A stretch of 11,420 nt of DNA from Methanobacteriota archaeon (lineage in GTDB: Archaea > Thermoplasmatota > Poseidoniia > Poseidoniales > Poseidoniaceae). A model generated the notes under the pieces. The model saw nothing but the letters and a program-made list of their open reading frames with translations. It was not told where the DNA came from and did no database searches. The position numbers and the translations under genes are program-made. Position 1 is the stretch's first letter, and each line of letters starts with the position of its first letter. The stretch covers positions 1 to 11,420 of the forward strand of contig PBUZ01000099.1 in assembly GCA_002728035.1 (NCBI GenBank), read 5' to 3'. Shown here in pieces: positions 31 through 11,170 of this stretch.

Positions 31-2841
31 TCACGCTTCAGCGGTTTCGCCAACAGTTGTTTCAGCACCGATTTGGCCCTTCTGCTCGTTGACTTGACGA
101 GCGAGGAAGGACACGACGTCGAGGATCTCAATGTCGGCGTAGGCTTCGTCGCCTTCGAACTTCAGGCACTCAAAGTGGGAGACACACTTGGGACAAGAGG
201 TCAACATCGTGTCAGCACCGGTCGCACGAACCTCTTCCATGCGGGTGACACGGAGTGAGCGAGCGTTCTCGTTGCACGACATCATGCTCGAAACACCGCA
301 ACACATGGCGTCTTCGCCACTGTGCTCCATCTCAACGATTTCAACGCCCTCAACAGCGTTGATGAGTTCACGGGGTTCTTCATAGATGCCCATTTGTCGA
401 CCAAGGCGGCACGGGTCGTGGTAGGTGACGGTGGTGTCCTCGGACTTGAGGTTCATGTCAAAGCCCTGCTCGATGAGGAACTCTGTCGTGTGCATGACCT
501 TGACATCCTCGAGTTCGTAATCACGAGCAAAAGTTCGGAAACATTCTGCACAGGACGACACGAGGGTATCGATGCCGGATTCGTTGATCTTACGCTGGTT
601 GTAGGCCTTCAACTTCTCAAAGACTTCATCCAAGCCTTGCCACTTCTGGTCGTGGCCACAGCACTTCAGGAAGTCTCGGCCGAGATAGGCCACATCGGTG
701 TTCATTTCCTCGAAGAGGGTGAAGGCGGCCGTCGTGGTATCGCCGAGGTTCATGGTGCCTTCGTTAACATGGGAGAAGACCATTTCTTGGTCGAGGTAAT
801 CGACACAGCCAGGGTAGTAGCCAATGTTGGAGGTGATGGGGTAGTCTTCGGTGGCGATGAAATCGTCATCTGCTGCTTCTTCAGCCTCAGCGTTCAGGAC
901 AGCCTGAAGCACCGTGTGAGGAATCTCTGCCTGTGGGCCGCCGACGATCAGACTTCGGCGGATGTCAACGTAGGAATCGTAGTCGACCAATTGAGGGCAT
1001 GCGTTGGTGCATGCGGTACAGGTCAAACAGGAGTACAACGGCACACCGTCGTCCTCGTTGTTCCACGAGTTGTAGATGATGTTGAGTTTGTCACCGCCGT
1101 TGAACAGACGAACTGGACAAGCATCATCACAAAGGTCGCAGCCGTAACACTTGTTCATCTCGAACTCATAACCACGGGCCATGTAGCGAAGAAGAACGAA
1201 GACAAGTGCGCCGAAGGTCACACAGGGAATGAACATGGCGTAGGTCAACTTGGCGTCAAGCGACTTGGGGTTTTGATGGTAGGAGGGGTTCTCGATGGTC
1301 GAAAACGCCGTGCCACCAAGGGCCATTTCCTCGGCGTTACTCAGGTTCACGGTGTGGCCAGCAAGGCTTGCTGGGGCATCCTCGTTCCAGACCAAGAGCG
1401 GCTGGTATGCGGCGATGGAGAAGGCGGTCTCTGTGGTGATGCTCTGGTTCAACGCCAGTGCACCGCTAACGACCACTTCGTAGGAGTAATCGTAGGTCCC
1501 AACGGCGAGTTCAACCGTCGCACCTTCGCAGTCAGCAAAGGACACGATTTCTTTGCCCGTGCTGTCGGTCATCGACAAGGTCGTGGCGACCATGGATTGG
1601 GTCGAAACGCCATCGATCTTTCGCTCGCTGGAGCGGAATTCACAGGACAGGTCGGTGGTGATGGTCTGAACTTCATCAGGGTGGCCTTCTGGAAACAGCG
1701 TTGTGTCTTCGGTTACGGTAAACGAGCCACTTGTGGCGTAGCCTTCGCCACCGTTGAAGGTGGTACTCGCAGCAGCAGCGTTGATGCCGTTTGAAGCATC
1801 TTGATGCCCGTTGGCATCGCTGAAATCCGTAATGATGTAACGGGCGGGCTGATAGATGTTCCAATCAAGCCAGGCTGTTGTCGGAACAACACCGCTGTCC
1901 GACCAGCCACGGTCATCGGTGAACTCGTTGGTATCGTGAACATGCACATCGGCTGGCTGGGTTCGCATGGCCTCCAGCTCTCCGTAATCCTTGATGGTCA
2001 ACAGCCCCTTGGCATCCCAGAACCCTTTGTCGTAGGTATCGAAGGTTGCGACGGTGGCGGCCGACGAGATGATGAGGGCGCCAACGATCAATTGTCGACT
2101 CTTGGCGACCGTGAAGCTTGTGCCCCAAGCCTTGATCAGCAAACCTCTGCCTATGAAATAGATACAAATCCACATCAGGACGCCTGTCATGACCCACGGT
2201 ATCGCATTGAACACGTCCGCTATCCAAGGTTCTCGGACACCGCACAAGAGGTCACCGTGGGAATCCAATTTACAGAAGTCTGAACGATTCTTCCCGTAGA
2301 GTTCGAGGAAGATGTTGATCGAAAACACCGAGATGAACCAAATGTGGGCAAGGTAAACTGCACCCGCAGCGGCGAACCAAGGATCTTCAACAGGACGCTT
2401 TTCTCGTCCACCAAGGAAAGGCGGGAGGGCAAGAATACCGACTGGGATACCGGTCAAGGCAGCGCCCCACCATGCAGCGTTCCATGGGAACATGGGTTGG
2501 CCGACAATATCACCAATGAATCCGGTTGGAACCACAAATTGCGGCAGGTATTCACCCCATCGCAGGTACCCGTAAGAAAACAACACGTACCAGTCAGGGA
2601 ACACGAACCCTGCTTGAGCATAGGGGTCGGCAGCACCGTGAAGTGGCGGTGGAATCAACCAAGCATAGAACAGAAGAATCGAGAGCATGGCTGCGAAAAT
2701 GATGGTGTCACGCAGCACTTCGTGTGGCCAAAACCCGTGACCTGTTCGGGTACGCTTACGCTTTTCTTCCGCTTTTTGGAGGTTTTCTTTTTCCTCCATG
2801 TACATTGAGGCAACACGGCCAAAGTTGTCAATCAGTCCCAT
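31..2841 (-). CDS. Fusion: cytochrome b6f subunit IV-like domain + extracytoplasmic insert + HdrD/GlpC-like iron-sulfur CCG protein
   Basis: 936 residues, last gene of the five-gene operon, 15 nt after the cytochrome b gene with a GGAGG site 7 nt before ATG. Residues 35-182 look like cytochrome b6f subunit IV: WPH/EVLRD entry, helix at about 44-62, ADPY then FPDWY at 81-85 (the Qo PEWY motif with Asp for Glu), helices at about 121-140 and 155-182. Extra helices lie at 208-231 and 246-266. Residues 267-530 are a hydrophilic, beta-rich domain, probably outside the cell, with Cys400 and Cys438. A sixth helix (533-552), followed by Arg-rich RYMAR, returns the chain to the cytoplasm. Then come two [4Fe-4S] sites (Cys565/568/571/575 and 605/608/611/615, each CxxCxxCxxxCP) and two CCG domains (Cys679, CCG 727-729, Cys764/767; Cys811, CCG 847-849, Cys883/886) as in HdrD, GlpC and GlcF. 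Domain identities are strong; the reaction is inferred. The usual partners (Hdr, GlpA/GlcD dehydrogenases) are not in the window. Confidence 0.9.
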   Translation of the reverse strand: MGLIDNFGRVASMYMEEKENLQKAEEKRKRTRTGHGFWPHEVLRDTIIFAAMLSILLFYAWLIPPPLHGAADPYAQAGFVFPDWYVLFSYGYLRWGEYLPQFVVPTGFIGDIVGQPMFPWNAAWWGAALTGIPVGILALPPFLGGREKRPVEDPWFAAAGAVYLAHIWFISVFSINIFLELYGKNRSDFCKLDSHGDLLCGVREPWIADVFNAIPWVMTGVLMWICIYFIGRGLLIKAWGTSFTVAKSRQLIVGALIISSAATVATFDTYDKGFWDAKGLLTIKDYGELEAMRTQPADVHVHDTNEFTDDRGWSDSGVVPTTAWLDWNIYQPARYIITDFSDANGHQDASNGINAAAASTTFNGGEGYATSGSFTVTEDTTLFPEGHPDEVQTITTDLSCEFRSSERKIDGVSTQSMVATTLSMTDSTGKEIVSFADCEGATVELAVGTYDYSYEVVVSGALALNQSITTETAFSIAAYQPLLVWNEDAPASLAGHTVNLSNAEEMALGGTAFSTIENPSYHQNPKSLDAKLTYAMFIPCVTFGALVFVLLRYMARGYEFEMNKCYGCDLCDDACPVRLFNGGDKLNIIYNSWNNEDDGVPLYSCLTCTACTNACPQLVDYDSYVDIRRSLIVGGPQAEIPHTVLQAVLNAEAEEAADDDFIATEDYPITSNIGYYPGCVDYLDQEMVFSHVNEGTMNLGDTTTAAFTLFEEMNTDVAYLGRDFLKCCGHDQKWQGLDEVFEKLKAYNQRKINESGIDTLVSSCAECFRTFARDYELEDVKVMHTTEFLIEQGFDMNLKSEDTTVTYHDPCRLGRQMGIYEEPRELINAVEGVEIVEMEHSGEDAMCCGVSSMMSCNENARSLRVTRMEEVRATGADTMLTSCPKCVSHFECLKFEGDEAYADIEILDVVSFLARQVNEQKGQIGAETTVGETAEA

Positions 2842-2856
2842 ACATCTCCCTCCGTA

Positions 2857-3723
2857 TCAATGCGGCTCCGCAATTCCTTGCACCCAAACGATGAACAAGT
2901 GAATGATGATCAGCGTGGTGACGATCACCGGTAAGATAAACACGTGTATGAAGTACATACGAGTCACCGTAAGCGGCGTCAATTCCGAGCCGGAGAACAA
3001 CAGGGTTGCGATGTACTTCCCAACGAGTGGACTCGAGTTGGCAAGGTTGATGCCGATGATGGCAGCACCGTAGGCGAGGCTGTCCCATGGGAGTAAGTAG
3101 CCGGAATACCCGAACACGATGGTCAGTGCCATGAGCGCAACACCGATGAGCCAGTTGAGTTCACGGGGGTTGCGGTAAGCACCGGTGAAGTAAACGCGGC
3201 ACATGTGGAGAAAGACGCTGGCGACCATGAAGTGCGTCGTCCAGTGATGGACCGCTCGCAAGATGTAGCCAAAGGGCAACTCGGTCATGATGTATTGCAT
3301 GCTGGCATAGGCAGGTGATGGGTCGCCTTCTCCACCGGGAACATAGTAGATGCCGAGTACCGTACCGGTGATGACGAGAATGATGAACGAAAGGAAGGAG
3401 ATACCTCCCAAACAGTAGAGCGGGTACCAGTACCAAATGATGCGGAGCTTGTACTTCTCAGCGTGCGTCAGCGGCATCTGGCGGTGCATGTTGTAGTAGG
3501 CGCCTTTGGACATGTTCCAGTAATCTTGCAGACGGAACCTCGTGTCCAGCCAAGAAAATACCCAGAGGAAGGAACGTTCGGCAACACCCATCTTTCCGGT
3601 CGATTCGACGGCACGAAGAATGTCGCGTCGAGGCATCTCCTCGTTCTCCTTGCGCAGCGTGAACGCCACCAAGAGTACGAGGAAGGCAATGAAAAACCAC
3701 AGAATCCAAAACATTGTCGTCAT
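2857..3723 (-). CDS. Cytochrome b6-like diheme cytochrome b (N-terminal cytochrome b domain)
   Basis: 288 residues; membrane diheme subunit that oxidises quinol on the outer side and passes one electron across the membrane. Heme ligands are His159/His173 (14 apart) and His260/His275 (15 apart; the longer second spacing is the b6f type, bc1 has 14). The motif YCLGG puts Cys104 where b6f complexes attach the extra heme c_i covalently. PWD at 212-214 and the ending QGIAEPH also resemble cytochrome b6. Core helices fall at about 103-127, 155-180, 190-212 and 254-280. A fifth helix (about 4-22), followed by a charged stretch, is an N-terminal extension absent from ordinary cytochrome b6. The gene lies between Rieske and the subunit IV-like fusion, so the two halves of cytochrome b are split as in b6f. 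The start follows a GAGGTGA site that overlaps the Rieske stop codon. Confidence 0.95.
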   Translation of the reverse strand: MTTMFWILWFFIAFLVLLVAFTLRKENEEMPRRDILRAVESTGKMGVAERSFLWVFSWLDTRFRLQDYWNMSKGAYYNMHRQMPLTHAEKYKLRIIWYWYPLYCLGGISFLSFIILVITGTVLGIYYVPGGEGDPSPAYASMQYIMTELPFGYILRAVHHWTTHFMVASVFLHMCRVYFTGAYRNPRELNWLIGVALMALTIVFGYSGYLLPWDSLAYGAAIIGINLANSSPLVGKYIATLLFSGSELTPLTVTRMYFIHVFILPVIVTTLIIIHLFIVWVQGIAEPH

Positions 3724-3732
3724 GCCTTCACC

Positions 3733-4578
3733 TCAGTCACAATACGTGTACCAGTCAATGTAGTCGGTTAGACCCTCGATCACGTCACCGTTCAATTGAA
3801 TCGGAATGAGGGGCAAGCCCACAGGTGCAGGTCCACCTGCACGGCGGATGCCCGCGTAGTTGAAGGTCGCACCGTTGGAGCGGTTGCGATTCGTGTTCAT
3901 CTCAAGCGCCGTTGGGTCGAATCGAGAGGAGTGGCAGATGCAGAACATCTTGGTTCCACCGTCATCGCCTCCGCCAGGCGTCCACGAATCCTCCGTGAAC
4001 GAATTCGAAACGAGTTGCCAACCTGGAATGCAACAAAGGTGCGTGCAACGACCGAAGACCATCACCAAGTCATCCGAGGGCATCAAACGTGGGTCGGCTT
4101 CAGCCAAATCTTCGAAGTGACCGACATACTTGCCGGTCTCGTCATAGCCCTCCATGAACTGGAAGCGGGCTTTGCCGTTGGATTCAGGCGTCCCTGCGTA
4201 CTTTGAGTGCTCGACATAATTGACGACCACGGGCACACCGTTCCAAACGCCTGCGGCGCCTGCGGTCCCGGTTGCCGATTTTGCCGCCTCTGCGACAAAG
4301 TCTGCTTTGGTCATGGGCTGGAGGTGTTTTGCACCGTACCATGCTTCATCTTCACGGCCTTTTGCCCAAAATTGCACGGCGAGGTCACCGCCGCCGCCGC
4401 CGCCAGGTGGCAGGAGAATCGCAGCAAAGCCGAGCACACCCAACGAAGCGGTGAGGACACCCGCAGCGGTGTTGAATCCGTAGCGAAGGAATTGACGGCG
4501 GTTGATGGTGGTGGCGCCACCTGCAACAGCATCGGCTCCATCGGACGGGGCAGGTTTGAGATCGTATTCACGCGCCAT
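3733..4578 (-). CDS. Rieske [2Fe-2S] iron-sulfur protein, Tat-exported
   Basis: 281 residues; takes the high-potential electron from quinol at the Qo site and carries it to an outside acceptor. A twin-arginine signal (NRRQFLRYG, residues 26-34) precedes one hydrophobic helix (about 36-56), giving an N-terminal anchor with the cluster domain outside. Next comes PPGGGGGG (57-64), like the proline/glycine hinge of b6f Rieske proteins, encoded by a run of GGC/GGT codons. Cluster motifs are CTHLCC (178-183) and CICHSS (213-218): Cys178, His180, Cys213 and His216 bind the cluster, Cys183 and Cys215 can form the usual disulfide. The canonical Gly between the first His and the disulfide Cys is Cys182 here. 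The protein is longer than b6f Rieske (about 180 residues) because of an insert at roughly 70-165. Nine nt separate it from cytochrome b. Confidence 0.94.
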   Translation of the reverse strand: MAREYDLKPAPSDGADAVAGGATTINRRQFLRYGFNTAAGVLTASLGVLGFAAILLPPGGGGGGDLAVQFWAKGREDEAWYGAKHLQPMTKADFVAEAAKSATGTAGAAGVWNGVPVVVNYVEHSKYAGTPESNGKARFQFMEGYDETGKYVGHFEDLAEADPRLMPSDDLVMVFGRCTHLCCIPGWQLVSNSFTEDSWTPGGGDDGGTKMFCICHSSRFDPTALEMNTNRNRSNGATFNYAGIRRAGGPAPVGLPLIPIQLNGDVIEGLTDYIDWYTYCD

Positions 4579-4583
4579 GTTGC

Positions 4584-4589
4584 ATCACC
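4584..4589 (-). promoter_or_regulatory. Shine-Dalgarno site of the Rieske gene, overlapping the upstream stop
   Basis: GGTGAT on the minus strand, five nt before the Rieske ATG, matches the archaeal anti-SD. Its last bases overlap the TGA stop of the preceding membrane-protein gene (4585-4587), which suggests coupled translation and supports the chosen start. Confidence 0.75.
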
Positions 4590-5031
4590 ACTTATACTCC
4601 CGCCAATCCTTTTGATGTTCAGGAATGAACTTGTTTTGAGCGTACTTCACAATGATGGTATTGGGCAAGATGTACTTCAGGTAAATGATGCCCACCATGA
4701 TGAGTGTGGTCAAGGTCATGGCCAGGTGGAAGGAGAGCTGTTGCTGGTCCCATCCGTTTGCGAGCCCATAGATCATGGAGAAACTCCAGTAGCAGATCCA
4801 GAACAATCCCCAAGCGAAGAAGAACATGGTGAGGTAAGAAGCACCAGATGGTGCCAAAGAAGCGCTGACAATGGTGCCTGGCTCGGCGACGTTGAACACA
4901 CCGTGATCGATGGCCGAAGTCATTTGTTCTTCGGTCAACTCCGCACCTTCGAGTGCAGTTCGGGCATCGTCGACGGATATCGAACCGTCAGCGACACCTC
5001 GCAGAAGGGTGGTGATCGTGTCGTCCATCAT
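4585..5031 (-). CDS. Small membrane protein of unknown function, probable accessory subunit of the b6f-like complex
   Basis: 148 residues; I do not recognise the family. Residues 1-50 are soluble and helical, with an acidic stretch (DGSISVDDARTALEG) like the short helical repeats seen at the ends of other small proteins. Two helices follow at about 67-89 and 100-123, rich in aromatic residues, then a basic tail ending in KDWREYKW. There are no conserved Cys, and the single His of the helical part (His102 region) gives no obvious heme pair. The start overlaps the upstream stop (ATGA); a second ATG three nt further in has a more usual spacing from the GGTGAT site and may be the true start, giving 147 residues. 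Its place between two redox genes, with overlapping or 6-nt junctions, argues for a structural or assembly role in the same complex. Function is inferred from context only. Confidence 0.85.
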   Translation of the reverse strand: MMDDTITTLLRGVADGSISVDDARTALEGAELTEEQMTSAIDHGVFNVAEPGTIVSASLAPSGASYLTMFFFAWGLFWICYWSFSMIYGLANGWDQQQLSFHLAMTLTTLIMVGIIYLKYILPNTIIVKYAQNKFIPEHQKDWREYKW

Positions 5032-5873
5032 TGATCACCTCGTCGCATCAATTTGTATCGCAGACGGAGTTGATTGCTGCGACCTTCGTACGATGTGGAG
5101 AAGCCGTAGCGAAGAAGGAGACCTGCGAAGATGACCACGCCAATCACCGCACCAAAGCCCAAAAGACCGAGCCAGTGAGCTCGGAGTTTGGCGCCCATGT
5201 GGTGAAGGTCAACGCCGTGATGCGCTGGTTCCGGAGGGCTGACGTTTCCGTCGCCTGCAAACAGCGTCCGAGTCCCCATGGCGGTGGACGCCTCATCGCC
5301 TTCACTGAGCGCAAAATTGAGTTGATTCCAACGGTCTTCAACGCCGGGAATTTGGTCGCCGTTAACGGAATTACCGACGATCCAGAAGTTGACCGTCCCC
5401 TCACCGGCCTCCGCAGGTGCAATCCATTCAAAGGTCCAAGCACGGTCTTCGGTAGCGCTGGAGGCTTCGGTGTGCGTGAGCGTTTGCAGGTCGGCTTCGC
5501 CATCGATTTCCCAGTTCTGGGCCATGTCGCTGGCAAGGCTGCCCAAGGACACTCGCATGGAAAAGCCAGCGGTGTAGGTGCCTGTTGCAGGCGGCCCACC
5601 AATGAGTTGAAGTTGAAGCGTGTAGGTCTCGCCGGGGACGTAAGCATAGGGCACGTCGTCAAGAATGACTTGAACGGCGTTGTCCGCTATTTCGTTGTGA
5701 CAAAGGCACCCGGATTTTGCGACATCATCGATGTCGACTTGCCCCGTTGAGCCTTGGTGAGATTGAGCCCCACCAATGCCGCCGTGATAGGAGGAGGCAA
5801 GCGTTGGGAGAAGGAGAAGAATCCCCACCGCAGCGAGCAAGGTGATGCGGGATGTACGAGAAGATTTGTGCAT
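5028..5873 (-). CDS. Exported, membrane-anchored Reeler / choice-of-anchor-like protein with a CxCH site
   Basis: 281 residues, first gene of the operon. A signal peptide (basic start, hydrophobic 10-25, cut near SSYHGG) is followed by SGCLCHN (54-60), giving Cys56, Cys58 and His59. The middle part (about 65-190) has the pattern of Reeler / choice-of-anchor V-type beta domains: VPGETYTLQL, AGFSMRV, THT (133-135), W(T)FEWIAP and NFWIVGNSVNGD. Members of that group in bacteria usually carry a CxxCH heme motif at this N-terminal place; here one residue is missing, so covalent heme is doubtful and metal binding or a disulfide is possible. A His-rich stretch (218-225) precedes one helix (about 234-256) and a basic cytoplasmic tail, so the domain sits outside the cell. 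It could receive electrons from Rieske in place of cytochrome f, but that is inference. ATG follows GGGTGAGG by four nt. Confidence 0.82.
   Translation of the reverse strand: MHKSSRTSRITLLAAVGILLLLPTLASSYHGGIGGAQSHQGSTGQVDIDDVAKSGCLCHNEIADNAVQVILDDVPYAYVPGETYTLQLQLIGGPPATGTYTAGFSMRVSLGSLASDMAQNWEIDGEADLQTLTHTEASSATEDRAWTFEWIAPAEAGEGTVNFWIVGNSVNGDQIPGVEDRWNQLNFALSEGDEASTAMGTRTLFAGDGNVSPPEPAHHGVDLHHMGAKLRAHWLGLLGFGAVIGVVIFAGLLLRYGFSTSYEGRSNQLRLRYKLMRRGDQ
5033..5041 (-). promoter_or_regulatory. Shine-Dalgarno site of the small membrane-protein gene
   Basis: GAGGTGATC on the minus strand lies inside the last codons of the upstream gene. It is almost a full match to the archaeal anti-SD. Counted from GGTGA, it is three nt from the first ATG and six from the second, so the second ATG (5028-5026) is a real alternative start. 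Confidence 0.7.
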
Positions 5874-6387: not shown

Positions 6388-7329
6388 ATGGAGATGCCAC
6401 GCACCGTGGCTGGCATGGACGCTTCCAACATCCTCATTGCAGGAGTGGGGGGCATCGGATGTGCATGGGCTCATCAAGCCCATCAGCGGGCACAACACCA
6501 TGCGCACCTCGTCCTCATCGATGCGGACGATGCCAGTTTTCAGAGCGGTGAAAACATCCACACACTTCGCCTTGGCCATGCACTCGACAGCGTTGGTTGT
6601 GCTGCCCTACCGCCGCTTGCAGAGCAGCGAATGCGTGGATTGAACACGCTGACGAATCAACTGCTTGCGGACACGGAACTCGTGATCTTGCTCACAGGAC
6701 TCGGAGGTGGCGTCGGGACGGGAGCAGCCCAAGAATTCGCCCGCCAAGCAAGGCAATGCGGCGCCATTGTCCTCGCTGTCGCCGCACTCCCGTTCGAGGC
6801 ACAACCCACCCGTCTCGAGTTGGCCAACGAGGGGCTTGACCGTCTGGAGCGAAATGCGCATGTGACCGTCCGTCTTTCGCTTGAACGTCTTGCCCGACAA
6901 GCCAGGGAACGTGGCCAACTTTGGCAAATGGGAGCAGAATGGATTGAAGACCTCGTCGACGGCTTGGTTCGAACGCTCATGAGCATGGGCCTCATCAACC
7001 TCGACCTGATGGATTTGCGAGCGATCGTCGACCAAGTGGGAGAGGCGACGATGTTGGTCGGCGTGGGAAGGCCAAACGACCCAAAGGGCATCCTCGAATC
7101 GGCGCTCAAAGCACCGCTTGCAGCGATGGATGTCGGTGGCGCAAAAGGGTGCCTCATTCAAGTTGAGGGAGGACAAGGCATGACGATCGGACAGGTCGAT
7201 GCTGTGGCTGAATTGTTCACCAGTGCACTCGATGAAGACGCCCAAGTGATTTTGGGTGCCAGGGTGAGCGATGACTTGGAGGACACCATTCGAGTGGTAA
7301 CATTGCTTTCGGGCATCCGCCCTGCTTAA
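6388..7329 (+). CDS. Divergent FtsZ/tubulin-superfamily protein
   Basis: 313 residues. FtsZ polymerises with GTP and organises cell division. Visible FtsZ signs: GVGGIG (19-24), the tubulin signature as GLGGGVGTGAA (104-114), PF at 135-136, and the T7 synergy loop NLDLMDLR (204-211) with Asn204, Asp206 and Asp209 kept, so contact-driven hydrolysis may work. Departures: the usual Thr in GGGTGTG is Val109, the GAGANP loop is replaced by SVGCAALP (68-75), and the residue that normally contacts guanine (Asn in IPN) appears to be Ser164 in RLSLERL. It also lacks the N-terminal extension and the C-terminal tail that binds membrane anchors. A non-canonical FtsZ paralogue is more likely than the main division FtsZ. 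Starts at 6388, 6394 and 6415 are all possible; no clear ribosome site decides. Its stop shares TTAA with the converging membrane gene. Confidence 0.83.
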   Translation: MEMPRTVAGMDASNILIAGVGGIGCAWAHQAHQRAQHHAHLVLIDADDASFQSGENIHTLRLGHALDSVGCAALPPLAEQRMRGLNTLTNQLLADTELVILLTGLGGGVGTGAAQEFARQARQCGAIVLAVAALPFEAQPTRLELANEGLDRLERNAHVTVRLSLERLARQARERGQLWQMGAEWIEDLVDGLVRTLMSMGLINLDLMDLRAIVDQVGEATMLVGVGRPNDPKGILESALKAPLAAMDVGGAKGCLIQVEGGQGMTIGQVDAVAELFTSALDEDAQVILGARVSDDLEDTIRVVTLLSGIRPA

Positions 7330-9208: not shown

Positions 9209-9709
9209 ATGGGAGCAGGAGGCACGGCCCCGAAAATGAAGATGAGTGATGTCTTCATTTTGACTGGACTCACGGTGTTGCTGGGTGCGTTGTTCATGCA
9301 TGCTTGGGTCACACCGATCAACCTCAACAGCGAGGACCCCCCGTACACCAATGGAGCCTCGTTGATGACCGATGACAAGGTCACCCTCAACATCATGGTG
9401 GAAAACGAAACCACCATTCGCGTCGTGTTCATGGATGAATCAAATTCGATTTTGAGCGCTGAATCCATCGTCATGGGGGCTGGAGATTCCGTTGAACGTG
9501 AATTCCTCGCTGACCAAGGTGGATTTTACACCTACGAAATTGACACCAAAGGCGTTGCAGCTACCCTCGATGTCGAGATTGACCGAAAACTCATGCTCGA
9601 CATGCTGCCGTTCCCAATCGGCGCGTTCTTCCTCGCCTTTGGGCTGTATCAGCGCCAAATGCATACCGAGGAATCAGCGGAGGTCCTCGACGCCGAATTG
9701 GATGTTTGA
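9209..9709 (+). CDS. Two-helix membrane protein of unknown function
   Basis: 166 residues from ATG 9209; family not recognised. A helix at about 14-34 (DVFILTGLTVLLGALFMHAWV) is followed by a roughly 95-residue beta-rich domain, probably outside the cell (VTLNIMVENETTIRVVFMD, then GGFYTYEIDTKG), and a second helix at about 130-148, then a short acidic cytoplasmic tail. The domain pattern resembles small immunoglobulin-like folds that sense or bind at the membrane surface, with no Cys and no catalytic residue pattern. The ATG codons at 9236 and 9242 (MKMSDV, MSDV) are later alternatives; AGGAGG at 9217-9222 lies 13 nt before the first of these, a little far. The gene follows the RNase P-like gene by 55 nt and its end overlaps the converging methyltransferase-biotin ligase gene by 36 nt. 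Confidence 0.75.
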   Translation: MGAGGTAPKMKMSDVFILTGLTVLLGALFMHAWVTPINLNSEDPPYTNGASLMTDDKVTLNIMVENETTIRVVFMDESNSILSAESIVMGAGDSVEREFLADQGGFYTYEIDTKGVAATLDVEIDRKLMLDMLPFPIGAFFLAFGLYQRQMHTEESAEVLDAELDV

Positions 9710-11170
9710 CCACGTCAATTCATCGGGGTCATCGACCAACACATGACCTTCACCAAGGAGTATTTGACCCTCCTGAGTCAGCCCATATGCATTGGTTGTT
9801 TTCTTTCTATAGAAAATTGGACCCAGTGAATTAACACCTTCGAGCACGGCTTGAACCCCTGCTTCGGCACGGTACCAACTCGGAAGTGAAACGGAAAGAT
9901 GTGGGGCTTCGTAATGCGAAGCCACCATGGCGTGGATGGCACGATGAAGGTCTGCTGCTGTACCGTTCCAACCGATGGCATCCAATCCAGTATAGCGGGA
10001 GTCTGAGCAGGAAAGGTTCACGCCGATGCCACCGACGATTCGGGTCATCGCACCTTTGGTGGAGGCCTCGAAAAGGATCCCAGCGACCTTTTTCCATGGC
10101 GAGGATGCTTCGGTGCGAAGATACACATCGTTTGGCCATTTTAACGAAATGTGTTCTGCATACGCGGGGGCAAGGTGGCGAATCAGCCGAACCAGGCCAA
10201 CGCCCACCACCACTTGGTCAAGTGGCTGATGGACAACAGATTCACCTTCTCCGACCACCCACGAAGCGAATAAGGCGCCTTCAAACGCCAACCATCTCCG
10301 TTGACGACGACCTCTCCCGTTTGTTTGCATGTCCGCACGGAGGGTTGCCCCGAAACCATCGGCTGACGCCATCAATTCGGTGTTGGTGCTATGAACCGTC
10401 TCAAGAACACGTTTTGGTGCATGTTCAAACGGACGCCAGACAGCAAGAACAGAGAGACATTCTCCGTCCTCAAACGTCAATTGCTCAGCAACCGTTGCAC
10501 CAAGGCCAACTCGCCAAGCCTGAGCGAGGGCATCGTCGTTGGGGCCTTTCGAAGAGATCAGAAAAAAACCGACGCCCTGTTCTGCAAGGAGATGTCCTTG
10601 AACGATCAGATCAAGGGTTCGAGGAAACAGGCCAACCTCGTCGGTGTCGAGAAGTGAAGCCTCTTCCAGTGGCCCAAGTACCCCATCCGCTGTCGCGTTG
10701 GAAGAAAGATACGGCATGTTCCAAACCACGACATCGTAAGGTTGGGCACCACCCCATTGAATTGGCCCCCCGTCAACAGCCGGGCCTGGACCTCCTTCGT
10801 GGACGGTTGCCTGCAAACCTGCTGCATCGAAATGTGCACGCGTGCAGGAGACAGCATAAGGGTTGACATCACAGGCCACCACCTCGCACCCTTCACTTGC
10901 GGCGTACAACGAAAGGGCGCCACTCCCGCAACCGATTTCCATCAGCGTTTTCCCATGCTTCAATCCCGCGGATTGGAGCACCTTGGCCATGAGATCCGTG
11001 TCCTCTCGTGGCGGGTAAACCGTCGGTGGTAACCGAAGGGCGAAGGCGCGACCGTTGGGTGCCGTCCAGGTCCGTTCTTGAGCAGCACCGCGAAGGTACG
11101 AAACTTCACGCTCGGCATGCGTGGATAAGAAGGGGGGCTGCTCGTCCACAGGAGGGTGGAAATGCACCAC
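9674..11170 (-). CDS. Fusion of HemK/Mtq2-like methyltransferase and biotin-protein ligase
   Basis: 498 residues. Domain 1 (about 35-245) is a class I SAM methyltransferase of the HemK2/PrmC type, which modifies glutamine in release factors: VYPPREDTDLM (51-61), SAM motif MEIGCGSGALS (77-87), Asp101 in CDVNPYAV, and NMPY (151-154) where the family has NPPY. Domain 2 (about 255-498) is a biotin-protein ligase, which charges biotin carboxyl carrier proteins through biotinyl-AMP: HSTN (260-263), GRGRRQRRW (285-293), KWPND (344-348), KVAGILFE (361-368, catalytic-type Lys361) and GGIGVN (380-385). No DNA-binding HTH is present, so it should not act as a BirA repressor. One uninterrupted frame joins both. 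The start is GTG at 11170 (or 11167); no ATG occurs before residue 61 and no ribosome site is clear, so leaderless translation is possible. Domain calls are firm, the joint role is not. Confidence 0.92.
   Translation of the reverse strand: MVHFHPPVDEQPPFLSTHAEREVSYLRGAAQERTWTAPNGRAFALRLPPTVYPPREDTDLMAKVLQSAGLKHGKTLMEIGCGSGALSLYAASEGCEVVACDVNPYAVSCTRAHFDAAGLQATVHEGGPGPAVDGGPIQWGGAQPYDVVVWNMPYLSSNATADGVLGPLEEASLLDTDEVGLFPRTLDLIVQGHLLAEQGVGFFLISSKGPNDDALAQAWRVGLGATVAEQLTFEDGECLSVLAVWRPFEHAPKRVLETVHSTNTELMASADGFGATLRADMQTNGRGRRQRRWLAFEGALFASWVVGEGESVVHQPLDQVVVGVGLVRLIRHLAPAYAEHISLKWPNDVYLRTEASSPWKKVAGILFEASTKGAMTRIVGGIGVNLSCSDSRYTGLDAIGWNGTAADLHRAIHAMVASHYEAPHLSVSLPSWYRAEAGVQAVLEGVNSLGPIFYRKKTTNAYGLTQEGQILLGEGHVLVDDPDELTWSNIQFGVEDLR

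Follow-up and report, generated by a model that had tools for sequence, protein, structure and literature searches.

A fusion of a subunit IV-like membrane part with an HdrD-like module in the complex III operon of Candidatus Poseidoniales, and its possible use as a ferredoxin port

The window, i.e. the whole stretch of DNA analyzed (11,420 nucleotides, contig PBUZ01000099.1 of assembly GCA_002728035.1), originates from a member of the Poseidoniales, globally abundant archaea of the ocean surface without cultured isolates. A five-gene operon runs on its reverse strand (-) from position 5873 to 31, with gaps of -4, 6, 9 and 15 bp. It encodes a choice-of-anchor V protein, a conserved 148-aa protein, a Rieske protein, a cytochrome b6-type subunit and, as last gene (31..2841, -), a fusion protein of 936 amino acids in a single open reading frame (ORF). 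A part similar to subunit IV of cytochrome b6f, an outer beta domain, two [4Fe-4S] sites and two CCG domains were assigned to the fusion by ORF, Pfam, profile match and alignment. All coordinates within the operon refer to the minus strand.

The subunit IV-like part comprises residues 39-185 with helices 1-3 (2287..2727) and was recognized by hydropathy and by profile matches to the C-terminal part of cytochrome b and to b6f subunit 4. It contains PDWY (residues 82-85, 2587..2598), the counterpart of PEWY of the quinol-oxidation site. Helices 4-5 (residues 206-271, 2029..2226; hydropathy) are followed by an outer region of about 255 amino acids (residues 272-526, 1264..2028) with a PPC/GOLD-like beta sandwich at 343-480, which was overlooked in the initial annotation. 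Helix 6 (residues 527-555, 1177..1263; hydropathy) leads into the cytoplasmic module. The six helices were predicted at 46-64, 126-144, 161-179, 213-231, 251-269 and 532-550, and this topology predicts the HdrD-like module on the cytoplasmic (n) side. The module starts with an HdrC-like domain (residues 561-617, 991..1161; Pfam, profile match, alignment) with two CxxCxxCxxxCP sites, C565/568/571/575 and C605/608/611/615. CCG domain 1 (residues 673-790, 472..825) contains C679, C727-C728-G-H-D and C764-A-E-C767 and was assigned by alignment and by fold match to HdrB/LutA/EtfD. CCG domain 2 (residues 805-890, 172..429; Pfam, alignment) contains C811, C847-C848-G and C883-P-K-C886.

All 18 cysteines and PDWY were kept in 45 of 45 aligned fused proteins, which we had chosen from the search matches. 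The eight [4Fe-4S] cysteines were invariant down to 33% identity, both in these 45 and in the 24 rows of another alignment. Pfam reported CCG twice (81.9 bits) and Fer4_8 (31.4 bits), both above cut-off. PF00032 was not among the Pfam matches of the window protein at E <= 0.01, and relatives were therefore used to show the subunit IV homology: two fused relatives passed the cut-off of 20.7 bits, L047 with 39.3 and P0153 with 48.7 bits. In L047, PDWY falls on PEWY of 1vf5_B in the alignment. Compared with solved structures, the profile of the 45 sequences matched cytochrome b / b6f subunit 4 (2qjp, 1e-7; 2e74_B, 5.8e-7) as well as HdrC (5odc, 2.3e-8) and HdrB (8rvu, 4.7e-5). A fold search with the whole model of the fusion gave clear matches only for the CCG part and the outer beta domain; no match was obtained for the membrane part, which this search barely tests. 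Racemase matches were dismissed as long, loose alignments with root-mean-square deviations of 8-11. Thus the architecture described in the initial annotation, subunit IV-like helices with PDWY, a sixth helix, two CxxCxxCxxxCP sites and two CCG domains, was confirmed by agreement of ORF, Pfam, profile and hydropathy.

Both halves were detected in one open frame of 918-988 amino acids in 48 of 59 genomes, namely the genome of the window (G000) and 58 relatives from its genus, family and order. Besides G000, the 48 include 21 genomes of the same genus at 88-94% identity. Seven of the 48 matches report one stop, presumably the terminal one. Among the remaining eleven genomes, nine showed fragments or a broken frame (G002, G003, G009, G017, G021, G025, G039, G040, G042), G013 only a weaker CCG match, which in G000 corresponds to a separate EtfD homologue, and G016 no match. 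The one-contig genome G073 also carries the fusion in one frame. The initial annotation had named two grounds for doubt, separate halves in the relatives and an assembly error; with one frame in 48 of 59 genomes the fusion stands, and an assembly error as its source was ruled out.

Shorter fused proteins of about 520-800 amino acids, which lack the outer domain, were found in other Thermoplasmata (L046, L047, P0121-P0151, P0215) and in a group resembling Geothermarchaeales (P0153-P0155, with one member named Candidatus Geothermarchaeales, and the related P0202-P0209). The outer region is missing from the aligned relatives outside the Poseidoniales. Four helices were predicted for P0134, P0153 and P0155, five for L047 and seven for G083. 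In Marine Group III (MGIII) two genes replace the fusion, with the break between [4Fe-4S] and CCG: the first encodes subunit IV together with [4Fe-4S], the next one the CCG protein. This was found in three genomes with clean gene calls (G143, G131, G306); G061 is similar, with poor gene calls. Of 254 proteins retrieved, 192 bear PDWY and 189 of these the signature CCGHDxxWQG...CAEC, a count biased by the use of family members in finding them.

The C-terminal half has close relatives that stand alone, proteins of about 350 amino acids in Methanosarcinales of the anaerobic methanotrophic (ANME) type, with 43-45% identity to P0153; Methanoperedens proteins related to this half show 47-49% identity. 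The ANME protein heads genes resembling HdrC, HdrB, HdrA and MvhD (L083, L085, L088, L098, L102, L105, L106, L120), named by size and weak BLAST similarity, and is possibly an extra Hdr subunit. These loci are the best 80 of 341 and carry no information on absence. Of 91 pooled sequences, 87 entered a tree; three HdrB sequences and one of NarI type were left out. A single clade (SH-aLRT 100) contained every fused sequence, the split MGIII proteins, the ANME proteins and P0156/P0157/P0180. On this tree, made by a quick method and with long branches flagged, the fused state needs two changes, and a single origin is compatible with it. In general, these results support that the fusion is old and conserved.

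The cytochrome b6-type subunit (288 aa, 2857..3723) matches b6 with 1.6e-43 (1vf5_A). Its histidines 159, 173, 260 and 275, which we take to be the four heme ligands, were invariant in 12 of 12 aligned cytochromes, as were H87, H288 and H160; by topology, H87 and H288 are located on the n-side. C104 aligns with Cys35 of b6, the ligand of heme c_n, in the comparison to 1vf5_A. A cysteine was found at this position in nine of the 12 cytochromes and a serine in the three from MGIII. The Rieske protein (281 aa, 3733..4578; CTHLCC...CICHSSRFDP) was recognized by motif; it had no Pfam match and reached 35.6 bits with TIGR01416, under the cut-off of 97.4. Both Rieske boxes were present in nine of nine sequences compared. 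No Pfam or NCBIfam match was obtained for the 148-aa protein (4585..5031), which is conserved in the operon. The choice-of-anchor V protein (5028..5873; NF041895, 91.9 bits, cut-off 42) consists of an N-terminal hydrophobic, signal-like segment, an outer beta domain with CxCH and a C-terminal helix, and is a candidate for the counterpart of cytochrome f.

The operon shows the features of a b6f-type Rieske/cytochrome b complex: split b6 and subunit IV, a Rieske protein and the heme c_n cysteine. The Poseidoniales loci examined, where long enough, show the same gene order, and so does MGIII apart from the split. Exactly one PF00033 cytochrome b was found per genome (21/21), and by position it stands beside the fusion. 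Thus the fusion belongs to the complex III of these cells. COX1 was detected in 16 of 19 Poseidoniia genomes, with no match in G051, G037 and the incomplete G000, and the cytochrome c assembly family PF01578 in all 21 genomes.

Regarding the CCG sites, two noncubane clusters, each with a bridging catalytic cysteine, are described for Hdr. In EtfD, Thr takes the place of one cysteine and His583 (C-x-H-C) completes the other cluster, which makes the site non-catalytic (PMC13083937). The ten CCG cysteines of the fusion are complete, and Glu (E766) stands at the position of the EtfD histidine in 45 of 45 aligned proteins; the CCG ligands are therefore of Hdr type. Like HdrD, the fusion combines two [4Fe-4S] sites with two CCG domains bearing five-cysteine noncubane sets. 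Neither Thr/Ser for the second cysteine of CCG domain 1 nor C-x-H-C was found in the aligned fused proteins (C728 and E766, 45/45). Position 728 is Ser in three of three MGIII genomes aligned and Val in P0208/P0209. The EtfD structure 9ojn was matched over the Fe-S/CCG part only; the membrane part matches cytochrome b/subunit IV.

A 2[4Fe-4S] ferredoxin of 110 amino acids was searched for in 80 of the 90 genomes first listed, and one match with E <= 1e-12 was obtained in 79 of them. It was present in 77 of 78 Poseidoniales genomes and missing only from G000, where the contig stops at the fusion. Of these 77 genomes, 75 carry it on the contig of the fusion (exceptions G008 and G198), 73 of them within 3 kb of the fusion end (about 14 kb away in G073 and G110). 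The ferredoxin gene is co-directional in 31 genomes (all 28 family-f2 genomes of the 75 and G030, G033, G034) and convergent in 42. Among NCBIfam models the ferredoxin scored best with rnfB, at 51 bits under a cut-off of 68.7. Immediately next to the fusion of G083 lies a ferredoxin-like ORF (39% identity), and in MGIII the gene after the CCG gene encodes a flavodoxin-ferredoxin (G306) or, in G143, a longer ferredoxin. The NADH-binding NuoF (PF01512) was found in none of 19 Poseidoniia genomes; 18 of the 19 had a 2-oxoacid:ferredoxin oxidoreductase (POR) domain, in one case with a score under the cut-off. Thus, ferredoxin is a likely main carrier in Poseidoniia.

Several further proteins were observed in these searches. 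The MGIII protein L052:7004-7993 (-), encoded in the complex III operon, is a fusion of a flavodoxin (CysJ-like domain) and a 2[4Fe-4S] ferredoxin, and G306 has a second flavodoxin copy (C12:11681-12286). In G073 a 653-aa protein with ferredoxin domain, flavodoxin and 2Fe-2S domain is encoded far from the fusion (L073:7750-9711, +); other Poseidoniales gave flavodoxin matches with a similar frame length. A protein of about 96-100 amino acids starting with RFGxEFGPxR adjoins the ferredoxin or the fusion (L053:7412-7699, +; L075:5305-5607, -; L079:11700-11990, -).

We suggest with moderate confidence, judging from sequence comparison, that the sole complex III of Ca. Poseidoniales is of b6f type with a fixed n-side ferredoxin port, most likely feeding quinone. 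The complex would then probably take electrons directly from the cytoplasm and not solely from quinol oxidation. POR would reduce ferredoxin during amino-acid breakdown, and reduced ferredoxin would deliver electrons to the CCG/[4Fe-4S] chain of the fusion. From there they may reach heme c_n/b_N and then quinone, whose reduction at the n-side site would take up protons from the cytoplasm. At the PDWY site quinol would be oxidized by Rieske and b_P, with Rieske passing one electron outward; the cytochrome f-like CxCH protein, followed by a copper protein and the oxidase, are candidate carriers. Functionally this would resemble cyclic electron flow around b6f, except that subunit IV itself would contain the entrance for ferredoxin. 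The potential of ferredoxin lies far below that of menaquinone and therefore favours the direction from ferredoxin to quinone, the quinone of these cells being assumed. The more specific idea of a ferredoxin:quinone:cytochrome oxidoreductase, a heterotroph's b6f with a CxCH cytochrome f-like subunit and a ferredoxin entrance hard-wired via Hdr-type noncubane clusters, is put forward only tentatively.

Partner and electron direction are inferred. Concerning the wiring proposed in the initial annotation, the covalent joining of a b6f-like quinol-oxidizing complex to an HdrD-like module, predicted to be cytoplasmic, held and proved old and conserved. The suggested partner, a thiol/disulfide or dehydrogenase system, is the less likely one; from gene neighbourhood the likeliest is the dedicated 2[4Fe-4S] ferredoxin. 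A thiol/disulfide partner keeps some probability, as the aligned Poseidoniales proteins have an intact Hdr-type cysteine set. Elsewhere the likeliest partners are the flavodoxin-ferredoxin or longer ferredoxin in MGIII and an HdrA/MvhD-like protein in one other family. Directly after the fusion, G091 has an HdrA2-like protein cut by the contig end (L047:5435-6379, +). The contig of G096 starts inside the CCG part of the fusion, and next comes a full 511-aa HdrA-like homologue with MvhD (FlpD) domain (L050:757-2292, +). Both genomes contain many further HdrA/MvhD-like matches. HdrA as general partner was rejected, the G096 protein matching only G061, G091 and G096 of 19 genomes, none of them Poseidoniales.

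Several observations weigh against a ferredoxin port. The gene order around the fusion is generally conserved, so that the closeness of the ferredoxin is weaker evidence than its count suggests. The convergent orientation in 42 genomes places the ferredoxin outside the operon there, in two genomes it is about 14 kb away, and in G091 and G096 the downstream gene is HdrA-like instead. All three aligned MGIII genomes have Ser for both the heme c_n cysteine and C728, so neither is essential to every member. The AlphaFold2 model of the fusion was poor, with a pTM of 0.49 and pLDDT below 50 at 574-610 and 618-643; this weakness lies where the [4Fe-4S] module adjoins the membrane, so that the model does not yield cluster-to-heme distances. 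Furthermore, a published survey credits Marine Group II (MGII) with a canonical NADH dehydrogenase (PMC6336850), by which NADH would have its own route.

The main rival to the ferredoxin port is an electron output, which we consider unlikely. By analogy with the proposal for anammox Rieske/cytochrome b complexes, quinol oxidation would be bifurcated: Rieske would receive the high-potential electron, and the low-potential one would travel through the b hemes and the [4Fe-4S]/CCG chain towards ferredoxin or metabolism linked to NAD(P). The anammox complexes share the b6-type cytochrome b, a subunit IV with additional helices (five) and an n-side Fe-S chain (PMC12954380), and it is a matter of speculation that the invariant H87 and H288 could hold an extra heme as proposed there. 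The Rieske protein also has the potential-raising Ser (CICHSS) and a Phe two residues on, by our reading the same pair as in Kustd1480 (PMC12954380). However, amino-acid-oxidizing cells with POR are expected to be rich in reduced ferredoxin and would hardly need more, and the potential step from menaquinol to ferredoxin demands a very low b_P heme, as argued in PMC12954380.

HdrD-like chemistry, with electron exchange between the CCG clusters and a dithiol/disulfide of the cytoplasm as in HdrDE or TfrB, appears rather improbable. The noncubane sets with bridging cysteine in both CCG domains and the Glu in place of the capping His of EtfD (45/45) are consistent with it, as are the stand-alone relatives heading HdrC-, HdrB- and HdrA-like gene clusters in ANME archaea. 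The best NCBIfam match, TfrB (thiol:fumarate reductase), points the same way, although with 115.5 bits it stayed far under the cut-off of 385. On the other hand, the loss of the second CCG domain 1 cysteine in the three MGIII genomes and P0208/P0209 indicates that the full set is dispensable for the role of the family. To our knowledge, no specific disulfide substrate is known in these aerobes.

It is quite improbable that the CCG module is fed by ETF of fatty-acid oxidation, as in an ETF:quinone oxidoreductase of the EtfD kind. EtfD is the best solved-structure match to the fusion and has the same module, and ETF genes were found in 21 of 21 genomes; but in 20 of these they lie on contigs separate from that of the fusion, and in the one-contig G073 the distance is about 180 kb. 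The genome of the window also encodes a separate full-length EtfD homologue (L071:6867-9302, +, G000:C29; 336 bits), which carries the EtfD signatures, CSG for CTG and CPHC with His; both are absent from the fusion. The gene of this homologue adjoins one that is MutY-like by eye, and the ETF genes of this genome lie on contig C51. A similar but weaker match, which aligns with the fusion at 27-33% identity starting near residue 600, was obtained in 49 of 59 genomes; of these, the one of G000 was checked as EtfD. A redox-silent, merely structural module, as might be thought from the varying partner genes and the loss of one cysteine in some relatives, is highly improbable given the invariant eight [4Fe-4S] cysteines.

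Two other genes of the window were noted. Positions 6388-7329 (+) encode a divergent FtsZ/tubulin-family protein (TIGR00065, 141.8 bits, cut-off 295.2); in several relatives the operon has as neighbour a gene that starts similarly. Positions 9674-11170 (-) encode an apparent 498-aa fusion of a HemK-like methyltransferase (N-terminal half) and a BirA-type biotin ligase domain (C-terminal half).

Former work reported cytochrome b and Rieske but no canonical bc1 for most Poseidoniales and speaks of a complex III that is 'MGII specific'; in many MGII families it found RnfB while the other Rnf components were missing (PMC6336850). Judging from the rnfB-like match, this orphan RnfB is probably the ferredoxin beside the fusion. 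Separate Rieske/cytochrome b and HdrDE were described in PMC4683180, where the fate of reduced ferredoxin was called unclear. In the accessible passages of the open-licence PMC literature, including PMC6336850, PMC6461757, PMC11237513, PMC4683180, PMC9723583 and PMC9239135, the fusion is not described. Neither the main-text passages nor the respiratory-chain section of the archaeal fusion survey PMC11237513 mention it, and the main text of PMC6461757 names neither a cytochrome nor Rieske. The present finding supplies a parts list for the MGII-specific complex III and offers an identity for the orphan RnfB. Two questions become testable, the reoxidation of ferredoxin in aerobic archaea and the direct n-side electron intake by a Q-cycle complex. 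If true, a ferredoxin port would provide the electron sink of respiring archaea that make reduced ferredoxin without an NADH module.

Cytochrome b6f, known for ferredoxin-linked cyclic flow, is similar in the split b6 / subunit IV, the Cys35-type heme c_n site, Rieske and possibly the cytochrome f-like subunit. Its subunit IV lacks a cytoplasmic redox module, whereas that of Poseidoniales adds three predicted helices and the outer domain. HdrDE acts on CoM-S-S-CoB. HdrD has two [4Fe-4S] and two CCG with the same cysteine set (in part after PMC13083937), but HdrE is a separate b-type cytochrome without Rieske chemistry, while the membrane part of the fusion is subunit IV-like. Mycobacterial EtfD (9ojn; PMC13083937) likewise unites a membrane part, two [4Fe-4S] and two CCG in one chain, with a cytoplasmic module feeding quinone. 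It differs in its five-helix membrane part with one heme b, its position outside a Rieske complex and the ligands Thr539/His583. The anammox complexes Kuste4569-4574 and Kustd1480-1485 also have a four-helix b6-type cytochrome b, a subunit IV with extra helices and an n-side Fe-S chain on the core, but on the n-side they carry an FAD-containing NAD(P) oxidoreductase, and multiheme cytochromes are present on the p-side (PMC12954380). No flavin or NAD domain was among the Pfam/NCBIfam matches of the five operon proteins. In comparison, the Poseidoniales module is HdrD-like, fused into subunit IV and has a ferredoxin as neighbour. The statement of the initial annotation that no such complex is described thus applies, within the open-licence literature, to this particular build; since an n-side redox module on a Rieske/cytochrome b core was already published for anammox bacteria (PMC12954380), the fusion complex is a variant of the Rieske/cytochrome b complexes and not a new kind.

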